64,000 nt of DNA from Megasphaera sp. MJR8396C (GTDB lineage Bacteria; Bacillota; Negativicutes; Veillonellales; Megasphaeraceae), in NCBI RefSeq assembly GCF_001546855.1, contig NZ_KQ958210.1:1-64000 (forward strand), in the 5' to 3' direction. Shown here in pieces: positions 8,800-11,662 of the stretch. The number at the start of each line of letters is the position of its first letter. Position 1 is the first letter of the stretch. The notes below the pieces were generated by a model, which made no database searches, was not told the DNA's origin, and saw only the letters and a program-made list of their open reading frames with translations. The position numbers were made by a program, and so were the translations under genes.

Positions 8800-8973
8800 C
8801 TACTCCTTTTCCCTGATATCTGCTCGGTTTTGTGCAAGTGCCGGCTGTCCCTCGAGACGGCGGTAAATCATACGGCATAGGCTGGCAGAAATGGGAGCAT
8901 CCTTAGGCTGACAGGTAAATTCAACGATCAATTCAGCTTCGAAACGATTCAGTTCTACCCAGCGTACCTTCAA
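8800..8973 (-). CDS. Small conserved-looking hypothetical protein (57 aa, TTG start)
   Basis: I do not recognise the family. The reading frame starts at TTG 8973 (MKVRWVELNRFEAELIVEF...) with an AAAGGG SD about 10 bases upstream and ends at TAG 8800. It is followed at once by a good terminator for this strand. The 57 residues read like a folded, charged cytoplasmic protein with two cysteines, not random sequence, and there is no signal peptide or membrane segment. It is below common ORF length cut-offs and has a non-ATG start, so automatic callers may miss it. Confidence 0.55.
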   Translation of the reverse strand: MKVRWVELNRFEAELIVEFTCQPKDAPISASLCRMIYRRLEGQPALAQNRADIREKE

Positions 8974-9070
8974 TGTAAGTCATCCCTTTGCGGTTAATAT
9001 AGTTCGGTTCGTTACTTCCTATTTTACTATACCGTCCAGCCTTTTACAAGACAGTTTGCGTCCCTCTGAG

Positions 9071-9099
9071 TTGACAATTTTGAGGTTTATTGCTATGAT
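9071..9099 (+). promoter_or_regulatory. Consensus sigma-A promoter of a short leader or small RNA
   Basis: TTGACA (9071-9076), a 17-base spacer and TATGAT (9094-9099) form one of the best promoters in the window. Transcription should start near 9106, 90 bases before a terminator and 187 bases before the next start codon. Confidence 0.8.
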
Positions 9100-9105
9100 A
9101 TATGC

Positions 9106-9226
9106 CGTCAATTGAACAGGCGATACGGTCCGCAGGGAATCTCTCCGACAAGGAGACTGGCGACTCTGAAACGGTTATCGTCATAATCGTGAAAGAGGGG
9201 CTTCGCATTTGCGGGGCCCCTTTTTT
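9106..9226 (+). ncRNA. Structured, terminated RNA of about 120 nt: unassigned riboswitch or small RNA candidate
   Basis: The RNA from the promoter at 9071-9099 can close a 7-bp stem GGCGATA (9119-9125) with TATCGTC (9176-9182). This encloses an inner hairpin TCTCC/GGAGA (9142-9156). An alternative hairpin (9172-9178 with 9183-9189) uses the 3' strand of the closing stem, so the two folds exclude each other. A terminator follows at 9196-9226. A closed aptamer-like domain, a mutually exclusive fold and a terminator suggest a riboswitch. The second -10 box downstream equally allows an independent small RNA. It does not match the consensus of any riboswitch class I can recall. Confidence 0.55.
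9196..9226 (+). terminator. Intrinsic terminator of the 9.1-9.2 kb RNA
   Basis: The stem AGGGGC (9196-9201)/GCCCCT (9216-9221), with an inner CGC/GCG pairing, is followed by six Ts. It lies between the consensus promoter and the first start codon of the downstream operon. Confidence 0.8.
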
Positions 9227-9228
9227 GG

Positions 9229-9259
9229 TTGCCAAAAGACGGAATATTTATGTTATAAT
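9229..9259 (+). promoter_or_regulatory. Possible second promoter for the 9293 gene
   Basis: A perfect TATAAT (9254-9259) lies after the terminator and 33 bases before the ATG at 9293. The best -35 is TTGCCA (9229-9234) with a long 19-base spacer, so strength is uncertain. If it works, the downstream operon can be expressed without read-through of the terminator. Confidence 0.4.
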
Positions 9260-9292
9260 GAAGTTGAGTATAACGCAAAGGGGGGAGATTCC

Positions 9293-10021
9293 ATGAATAC
9301 CTTACCGTTACAGACAGCCTGTCGGCCCCGCTTTTTTTCCTTAACGGATACGAAAAAGATCAAAGGGCTGCACCATGAATACGGACAGGCCGTCCAGCAG
9401 TATTTCCACCGCCTTTTTCCTCACCGTCGCTGGCAGGTTTTCCGAGATCCCGTCGGCACGCCGCTGGCCATCGATGTAGAAATCTTGTATCCGACGGAGG
9501 AAGAGCCTTTTTACCTGCTTCATACCATGGGCATGAGTGCGTCGCCCATGCGCTATCCGTCGGGAGCTTTTTCGGCGAACGAAGGCTATAGTGAACTGTG
9601 TCTCATCTTGCCGGCCCGGTGGCCGTTTCGACGAGAGCGGGGACTGTCACTGAACGATAAGGCGGCCTGGCCGATTTGGCTGCTCATGGAATTGGGGCGC
9701 TTTCCCCACGTTCACGACGTGTGGATGGGGTATGGCTTTTTATTGCCCAATCGGGAAAAACCGGAGTCTTTTGCTGAGGATACGGCGCTGTCCGGCGTGG
9801 TCATCGTTCAGTTTGAAGGACAGCTGGGAGGCGTGAAGATGCCCGATGGGACGACTGTGGAACTTCTCATGCCCATCCTTTTATACAAAGAGGAAATGGA
9901 CCTGTGCAGCGACATTGGTATCGATAGTTTAGTCGATGCTGTGCTCGATGAATGCGGCGGTTCTTTCCTGCTCAATAAAGATCGGCCGAATATCGCCCTT
10001 GAGGACGATTGGGGGCCTTAA
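9293..10021 (+). CDS. Suppressor-of-fused (SUFU) domain protein
   Basis: The 242-residue protein resembles bacterial proteins with the suppressor-of-fused domain (SUFU family), cytoplasmic proteins whose biochemical role is mostly unknown. Typical features are the central IDVEILYPTEEEPFYLLHTMGMSASPM region (about residues 60-85) and the GYSELCLILPARWPF strand (about 98-112), followed by a WPIWLLMELGRFP helix. ATG 9293 has a strong SD (AAAGGGGGGAG). It heads a group with a molybdenum-hydroxylase-type FAD protein and yqeC, starting 20 bases or fewer apart, but no direct functional link is obvious. Confidence 0.7.
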   Translation: MNTLPLQTACRPRFFSLTDTKKIKGLHHEYGQAVQQYFHRLFPHRRWQVFRDPVGTPLAIDVEILYPTEEEPFYLLHTMGMSASPMRYPSGAFSANEGYSELCLILPARWPFRRERGLSLNDKAAWPIWLLMELGRFPHVHDVWMGYGFLLPNREKPESFAEDTALSGVVIVQFEGQLGGVKMPDGTTVELLMPILLYKEEMDLCSDIGIDSLVDAVLDECGGSFLLNKDRPNIALEDDWGP

Positions 10022-10041
10022 AGAAAGGTGGATTGGACGAT

Positions 10042-10851
10042 TTGATTACCAGTACGACGACGCTCGTTCCCGACAGTCCGGCTGCTGCCTATGATGCCTA
10101 TCGTCAGGCTGCGTCCGCTGTTTTTCTGGCGGGAGCGCAGGGGTTGAAATATAGAAAAGAGCATTATGAGCTGGTCGTTGATTTATCAAAAGCCGGGCTC
10201 AGCTACATTGAAGATGAAGGCGATGAAATCGTCATCGGTGCCATGACGCCCTTATGGCAGCTTAAGATTTCTTCGGTCATTCAAAAATTGGCCGGTGGAG
10301 CCGTCAGTCGAGCCATCAGTGATATTGCCGATAAGGATGTTCAGCGTTACGGTACCCTTGGCGGCGTCATTTCAGGGAAAGGGGCTTTTTCCGTGCTGCT
10401 GCCGATTTTCCTGTCGCTGCACGTCGACGTCCTGCTTCAGGATAAGGGGCGTATGAGTTTGGAAGACTACCTGCAGTGCCCGCCGATGGGAGAATTGGTT
10501 ACGGGTATTTCCATTGCCCGGGAAGAAGTGTATACTGCTTATAAGGCCTATCGCCGGCTGCCGTCGGACGAACCTTATTTGGTCGGTGCGGCGTCTTTGC
10601 GGGATGATTCCTGGCGCATCGTCGTCGGCGGTCGTCCCGGGGCAGCGGCCATTGCCTGGTCAGCCAGTGATGAATTGACGGAAAAGGGCATGGCTGTTAA
10701 GGAAAATGTAGCTCATTTAGCCAGTGAAGAATTGGATTTTGGAAATTTCGGAACCTGCTCGGAAGCCGAACGGCGGAGTTTGACGATTGAAATGGTTCGC
10801 GGTCTTATTAAAGCGGCTTCGAAGGGATACAGCCGTCATATTGCAAATTAG
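10042..10851 (+). CDS. Orphan FAD-binding subunit of the xanthine dehydrogenase/molybdenum hydroxylase family
   Basis: This 269-residue protein looks like the medium FAD subunit (XdhB/CoxM type) that passes electrons between the Fe-S and molybdenum subunits. The second FAD loop is recognisable as RYGTLGGVISGKGAF near residue 112. The first FAD loop is poorly conserved, so cofactor binding is likely but not certain. No Fe-S or molybdopterin subunit lies beside it, which is unusual. The start is uncertain: TTG 10042 has AAAGGTGG at a good distance, while TTG 10009 and TTG 10033 are in frame but badly placed. Neighbouring yqeC points to selenium-dependent molybdenum hydroxylase maturation. Confidence 0.7.
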   Translation: MITSTTTLVPDSPAAAYDAYRQAASAVFLAGAQGLKYRKEHYELVVDLSKAGLSYIEDEGDEIVIGAMTPLWQLKISSVIQKLAGGAVSRAISDIADKDVQRYGTLGGVISGKGAFSVLLPIFLSLHVDVLLQDKGRMSLEDYLQCPPMGELVTGISIAREEVYTAYKAYRRLPSDEPYLVGAASLRDDSWRIVVGGRPGAAAIAWSASDELTEKGMAVKENVAHLASEELDFGNFGTCSEAERRSLTIEMVRGLIKAASKGYSRHIAN

Positions 10852-10873: not shown

Positions 10874-11662
10874 ATGTTTAAAGATAATCGTTGGCGGCGT
10901 ATGCTGCAGCCTGGCATTACGGCCATTGTAGGCGCCGGTGGAAAGACGACGGTATTAGAGCGTCTCGGTACGTATGGCCACGGCGGCCATCTGCCTATGA
11001 TGGTCAGCAGCATCGTGCCCATGGACAGCACGCGCGTCGACAATGTCGAACCGTTTGACGTCATCTGCACCGAAGATGTAGAAAAGGGCGAGGCTTTTTG
11101 TGCTGAACGAATTGCGTCCGGCCACGTTCCGGCTTGGTTTGCCGGCCTTGATGACCAGGACTGCTATATCGGTCTTGATCCTAAGGTCATCGATGAAATC
11201 AAGCAGCGCCATCCGGCTTGGTATATCCTCATCGAAGGCGATGCCGGCCGCGATAAATGGCTCAAGGCGCCTCTGGCTGACGATATCCCCCTTCCGGACA
11301 GCTGCGATACGGTCATCGGTGTCCTCAATCTGCAAATGTTAGGCAATGTCATCAGTGGTGAAAAAATAGAAGGCGTCGAAACGGCGGCGGCTATCATGGG
11401 ACGTCCCTGCGGTGCCGTCATTACGCCGGCCATGCTGGCCAAGCTCATCCAGCACCCGCGCGGCTTATTCCGTGGGACGCGCTGTACGCGCATCCTCTTC
11501 TGCACAGGCTATAATTCCGTTCAACACCGCATGACCGAAGCCCTCCTCGACGATCTCGAAGACTTCGACCTTACGGCCAGTGTCCTGGCTGACGGCTATC
11601 GAGAAACCTGCACGATACGACAGTATATCAATTACGATAATGTAAGAAAGAAACGGATGTAA
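10874..11662 (+). CDS. yqeC: Putative selenium-dependent hydroxylase accessory protein YqeC
   Basis: YqeC proteins co-occur with selenium-dependent molybdenum hydroxylases and are thought to help mature them. The 262-residue protein begins with a P-loop-like segment ITAIVGAGGKTT (residues about 14-25), includes the EGDAGRDKWLKAP stretch (about 122-134) typical of the family, and ends without a membrane segment. ATG 10874 follows an AAAGGGGG SD. It sits 22 bases after the FAD subunit, supporting a shared pathway. The molybdenum subunit itself must be encoded elsewhere if this system is functional. Confidence 0.75.
   Translation: MFKDNRWRRMLQPGITAIVGAGGKTTVLERLGTYGHGGHLPMMVSSIVPMDSTRVDNVEPFDVICTEDVEKGEAFCAERIASGHVPAWFAGLDDQDCYIGLDPKVIDEIKQRHPAWYILIEGDAGRDKWLKAPLADDIPLPDSCDTVIGVLNLQMLGNVISGEKIEGVETAAAIMGRPCGAVITPAMLAKLIQHPRGLFRGTRCTRILFCTGYNSVQHRMTEALLDDLEDFDLTASVLADGYRETCTIRQYINYDNVRKKRM

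Follow-up and report, generated by a model that had tools for sequence, protein, structure and literature searches.

Small RNAs of the RsaE/RoxS kind, known from Staphylococcus and Bacillus, direct C-rich seeds against Shine-Dalgarno sequences (PMC4409812), while the riboswitch candidates described in the Negativicutes, such as the gltD, ldh2, ilvD and potE motifs, are described as lying in front of defined genes (PMC8632094); the main text of the latter report does not mention Megasphaera. A third point of comparison is 6S RNA (RF00013), which is free-standing and has a closing stem. Our literature searches found no described small RNA from Megasphaera. This genus is common in the gut and the rumen.

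Here, we analysed a window of 64,000 nt of Megasphaera DNA in which an RNA unit stands upstream of a three-gene operon led by a gene for a SUFU-domain protein. The unit resembles RsaE and RoxS in being compact, in being bounded by a promoter and a terminator at a length of roughly 100-120 nt, and in carrying a C/U-rich segment that can pair with a ribosome-binding site, but it matches neither the RsaE family nor any other family in Rfam, has one CU-rich segment, is confined to one clade, and has a neighbouring operon as its predicted target. It shares with the Negativicutes riboswitch candidates the bacterial class and the placing of a structured RNA upstream of an operon; unlike those motifs, however, it precedes an operon that has its own promoter and does not need the RNA. 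It is also shorter than 6S RNA, with which it has a free-standing gene and a closing stem in common, and has no match to RF00013. We regard it as a candidate for a new, lineage-restricted sRNA gene of a known general kind.

A promoter- and terminator-bounded RNA unit

The first-pass annotation of this locus described a consensus promoter, an RNA of about 120 nt and a terminator, and all three, with the promoter near-consensus and the terminator strong, are present at 9071-9226 of the window (plus strand, as are all features below unless stated otherwise). The promoter (9071-9099) consists of TTGACA at 9071-9076, a 17-nt spacer and TATGAT at 9094-9099, agreeing with the consensus at 11 of 12 positions in a scan of 750 bp that returned two promoter-like sites where 0.5 would be expected, and both its -35 and its -10 element are retained by each of the five carriers of the unit. 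The predicted sRNA gene of about 120 nt (9105-9226) would start at about 9105-9106 and end in the T run of an intrinsic terminator, whose GC-rich hairpin (9191-9226) proved to be real and is likewise kept in five of five carriers. These predicted ends were placed by the anatomy of promoter and terminator together with the homologues in five Megasphaera genomes. A simple terminator scan did not list the hairpin at 9191-9226, probably because its stem runs into the T run.

The unit matches no Rfam family, as had been suspected: a scan of the whole window against 4227 Rfam families gave no match at the gathering score, and a search of 9000-9300 up to E = 10 returned chance-level matches only. Identity with 6S RNA was rejected, the single RF00013 match of this genome being on another contig (G000:C36, E 7e-20). 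We also rejected a coding reading, because 2-nt indels shift the frames between lineages and the copies in two of the genomes, G003 and G007, have stops in every frame; a 64-codon frame at 9102 fell as well, its ATG being changed to ATC in G012 and G013 and the frame being interrupted in G003 and G007. In being non-coding and in having its own promoter and terminator, the unit shows two of the features expected of a trans-acting sRNA gene.

Occurrence in one Megasphaera clade

The unit is single-copy and present in five of the 15 Megasphaera genomes examined, that is, in the window genome G000, in G012 and G013 (97%), in G003 (78%) and in G007 (72%), so that identities in BLAST span 72-97% over 231 bp. 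We take G013 to be M. massiliensis NP3 and G003 to be Megasphaera sp. NM10, and the window genome to be close to M. massiliensis; G007 is, at a guess, M. elsdenii-like. In every carrier the unit lies directly upstream of the SUFU gene, and the five carriers form one clade with a support of 100/100 in a tree of the SUFU protein. Since it is conserved in five genomes, with its first 20 nt identical in all of them, the unit is more than a chance arrangement.

Homologues in other genera of the order or class, which the first-pass annotation had envisaged for Dialister and Veillonella, were not found by covariance models: with models built with and without the terminator, no further copies held up among 62 genomes of the order and 201 of the class. 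The full-length model gave many additional short matches, seemingly driven by the terminator and often on both strands, and the best of them (in G002) was rejected because a coding gene ends there and an ordinary terminator comes after it. The terminator-less model recovered only the five copies plus weak matches, of which the one that was examined, in G000:C3, falls within a coding gene. BLAST matches to query positions 93-125 in G044 and G055 were discarded because on reading the unit was not there. The exact 5'-end pattern was found in three Megasphaera records and in three unrelated chance matches in genome contigs, and had no match in viral contigs.

Conservation is unevenly spread along the unit. 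Between lineages, the first 20 nt of the predicted RNA (CCGUCAAUUGAACAGGCGAU, 9105-9124) are 100% identical (20 of 20 positions). Identity drops to 55-57% in the middle of the RNA and is 79% for the promoter, 80-87% for the terminator and 81% for the 3' arm of the closing stem. By this measure the 5' end is the most constrained part of the putative RNA. The same 20 nt include the palindrome TCAATTGA. This segment may serve for a second pairing, bind a protein, or act as a DNA operator immediately downstream of the start; no clear candidate target for the invariant 5' end emerged among the sampled genes.

The SUFU operon and its own promoter element

The operon downstream comprises the SUFU-domain protein gene (9293-10021; Pfam PF05076, E 5e-27), a FAD_binding_5 protein gene (10009-10851; PF00941, E 1.6e-15) and a YqeC-like gene (10874-11662; PF19842, E 2.9e-22), in this order. 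A second TATAAT had been noted before the next gene, and it is there as part of a separate extended -10 element, TGTTATAAT (9251-9259), 33 nt before the SUFU ATG at 9293. We found the operon in 16 Megasphaeraceae genomes, 11 of them without the RNA, and the operon sequences that were read, including those of the 11 RNA-less genomes, have TATAAT or a close variant, mostly with the extended TG, near the SUFU start. Because this promoter element near the SUFU start is the operon's own and also occurs in genomes lacking the RNA, the operon does not depend on the RNA promoter.

In the carriers, the RNA unit sits between the SUFU -10 element and a small gene of 57 codons (8800-8973) that runs divergently on the minus strand. 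The small gene, which starts with TTG in the window lineage and with ATG in G008, also occurs in G003, G007 and G008, and gave no Pfam match up to E = 1. In G008, the region upstream of SUFU (L053) holds the divergent gene and no RNA, together with a small GGCCTCGAAAGGCC hairpin that lacks a T run and might be an origin or a relic of the RNA. In G013 (M. massiliensis), the SUFU gene (L049) appears as two matching pieces in different frames near the N-terminus, covering residues 1-26 and 12-242, which suggests a frameshift or an assembly error.

YqeC marks the trait of selenium-dependent molybdenum hydroxylases, but a yqeC deletion in C. difficile had no clear effect on growth (PMC11448449). 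The window genome encodes a second YqeC-family protein (G000:C28:9410-9823), which scores 113 bits against 81 for the protein encoded at 10874-11662, so it is uncertain whether the operon is linked to selenium or molybdenum. Such a link would be the sole basis for an RNA that senses purines, molybdate or selenium.

Folding of the RNA and the riboswitch alternative

The proposed 7-bp closing stem, P1 (5' arm 9119-9125, 3' arm 9176-9182), can form with one G-U pair among its seven, and its inner six pairs are invariant in all five carriers; the inner hairpin was also confirmed, as UCUCC/GGAGA. P1 had further been described as mutually exclusive with an alternative hairpin at 9172-9189 (arms 9172-9178 and 9183-9189). 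Both structures can indeed form, and in the window lineage they lie within about 1 kcal/mol of each other, but a conserved two-state switch did not survive comparison: the near-equality is restricted to the window lineage, and in G003 and G007 the alternative hairpin takes another register and is about 5-7 kcal/mol less stable than P1.

Relative to shuffled sequence, the folding z score was -4.8 for 9100-9235, -3.0 for 9106-9224 and -0.04 for 9106-9192, in which the terminator is left out. Nearly all of the excess folding stability is thus supplied by the terminator, and the inner part has no more structure than its composition accounts for. RNAalifold returned three pairs with two-sided change, two of them in an extension of P1, from five sequences that represent essentially three types. 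Slid controls scored below the aligned P1 covariation, and the register in which the P1 extension is aligned is not the most favourable one by energy in G003 and G007. The search for covariation in the closing stem thus produced two to three pairs from essentially one lineage contrast, which lends weak support to P1 and none at all to a two-state switch.

These observations bear on the first of the two readings originally offered, a new riboswitch for molybdenum-hydroxylase-associated genes. As a transcription-attenuation riboswitch or leader of the SUFU operon, the unit would set read-through of the terminator by switching between P1 and the alternative hairpin, a design that agrees with the order of promoter, structured RNA and terminator, with their position, and with the small energy difference in the window lineage. 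However, the promoter element of the operon lies downstream of the terminator and recurs in the 11 RNA-less genomes, P1 and the alternative hairpin both lie clear of the terminator, and the 5' arm of the terminator, when deprived of its 3' arm, finds no strong antiterminator partner. Moreover, the RNA body folds no better than shuffled sequence, the alternative hairpin is weaker and out of register in G003 and G007, and the RNA is confined to one clade, whereas riboswitches are usually widespread. The unit was thus found neither in the 5' leader of the mRNA that it would control nor with an expression platform competing with the terminator, and we consider a riboswitch highly improbable. The second reading, a free-standing small RNA, fits the unit's own promoter and terminator, the lack of a conserved reading frame and the separate promoter of the operon, and judged by these features the unit is very likely an sRNA gene of this kind.

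Such a gene could in principle produce a short non-coding transcript with no pairing role; its promoter might, for example, influence supercoiling at the divergent and downstream promoters or the polymerase traffic there, or the transcript might be a protein-binding decoy. The location between two promoters agrees with this idea, as does the drift of the RNA middle while promoter, 5' end and terminator stay. It is less easily reconciled with the invariant inner pairs of P1, the few compensating changes in the outer stem, or the GAAUCYCUCCG motif that is kept in the middle of the RNA in all lineages, and we judge it unlikely.

Complementarity to the SUFU ribosome-binding site

We then considered a free-standing sRNA that pairs with mRNA. 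A CU-rich candidate seed, GGAAUCUCUCC (9136-9146), is complementary to the ribosome-binding site of SUFU, GGGGAGAUUCC (9282-9292), a predicted target that runs from the Shine-Dalgarno sequence through the base before the AUG. The two can form an 11-bp contiguous pairing of -17.2 kcal/mol. The ranks below rest on contiguous-helix energies from a home-made script. Among genes called by a simple home-made gene caller in about 0.98 Mb (about 40%) of the 2.45-Mb window genome, SUFU ranked second of 359 sampled genes, and third of 740 in a larger sample of genes with a Shine-Dalgarno-like motif. It ranked second of 325 in G003 and 43rd of 337 in G007; the ranks in the window lineage (type A) and in G003 (type B) are not independent, since the two share ancestry. 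Shuffled RNAs paired as well in 7 of 3000 cases for type A, 26 of 3000 for type B and 182 of 3000 for G007.

In the sister lineage, that of G003, an 11-bp pairing is kept with changed letters, the type A seed AAUCUCUCC matching GGGGAGAUU and the type B seed AAUCCCUCC matching GGGGGGAUU, and the RNAs pair better with their own sites (A-A -17.2 and B-B -17.5 kcal/mol) than in crossed combinations (A-B -13.2 and B-A -11.7 kcal/mol); where the letters of the ribosome-binding site change between A and B, the change spans a difference of 2 nt in length. The pairing in G007 comes to just 8 bp plus mismatches. The GAUUC of the target is rare just before start codons: among genes with a Shine-Dalgarno-like motif, and with SUFU itself counted, it was found in 4 of 262, 2 of 215 and 5 of 236 (1-2%). 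Each of the three carrier types has it in front of SUFU, and the SUFU leaders of the 11 RNA-less genomes lack it. Folding predictions for all three types leave GAAU of the RNA free and place the remainder, which is most of the seed, in the stem of the inner hairpin.

A CU-rich segment is complementary to many Shine-Dalgarno sequences in general, and other genes scored nearly as well as SUFU. The RNA might accordingly be a free-standing trans-acting sRNA that has its main targets elsewhere and meets them with either its CU-rich seed or its unvarying 5' end, the SUFU match being a by-product of a general anti-Shine-Dalgarno character. AAUCYCUCC pairs with several ribosome-binding sites of the GGAGGGAUU type, such as that at L218:11929 and those of a carA-like gene (L211) and a glpX-like gene (L192), both named by their first residues only. 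The strong conservation of a 5' end that does not pair with SUFU also fits targets elsewhere, and comparable sRNAs known from Firmicutes act on many targets (PMC4409812). Against this stand the adjacency of SUFU to the RNA, its high rank in two of the three lineages, and the presence of GAUUC before SUFU in carriers but not in relatives without the RNA. We hold main targets elsewhere to be possible but rather unlikely, and put a direct action on SUFU, as suggested by the complementarity, at slightly under an even chance.

Proposed mode of action

Taken as a whole, our best explanation is a free-standing sRNA whose most likely effect is to reduce translation of the SUFU/FAD/YqeC-like operon, a proposal that we hold with about even confidence. 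The promoter, the terminator, the conservation, the separate operon promoter element and the complementarity are all seen in the sequence; that the unit is transcribed, where its RNA begins and stops, and that this RNA pairs and represses in the cell are inferred, as follows. RNA polymerase would start near 9105 and stop at the terminator near 9226, releasing an RNA of about 120 nt with the closing stem, the inner hairpin bearing the CU-rich seed, and the 3' terminator hairpin. The unpaired GAAU beside the inner hairpin would contact AUUC between the SUFU Shine-Dalgarno sequence and the AUG, after which the helix would spread into the hairpin, joining UCUCUCC with GGGGAGA. The ribosome-binding site of SUFU would then be covered and translation of the operon lowered. 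The most conserved part of the RNA, its 5' 20 nt, has no role in this SUFU-pairing model.

More tentatively, the sRNA may have been born within one Megasphaera clade by insertion between the old divergent gene and the old SUFU promoter, with the adjacent operon as its only or main target and with seed and target site changing together. We regard this full scenario as doubtful; if true, it would give an sRNA-target pair whose birth can be placed on a tree.

These analyses remove one riboswitch candidate from consideration. If the sRNA gene is confirmed, Megasphaera would have one with a predicted target and with a gain that can be placed on the tree. As the SUFU/FAD_binding_5/YqeC-like operon is without known function, such a regulator would provide a handle on when the operon is used.
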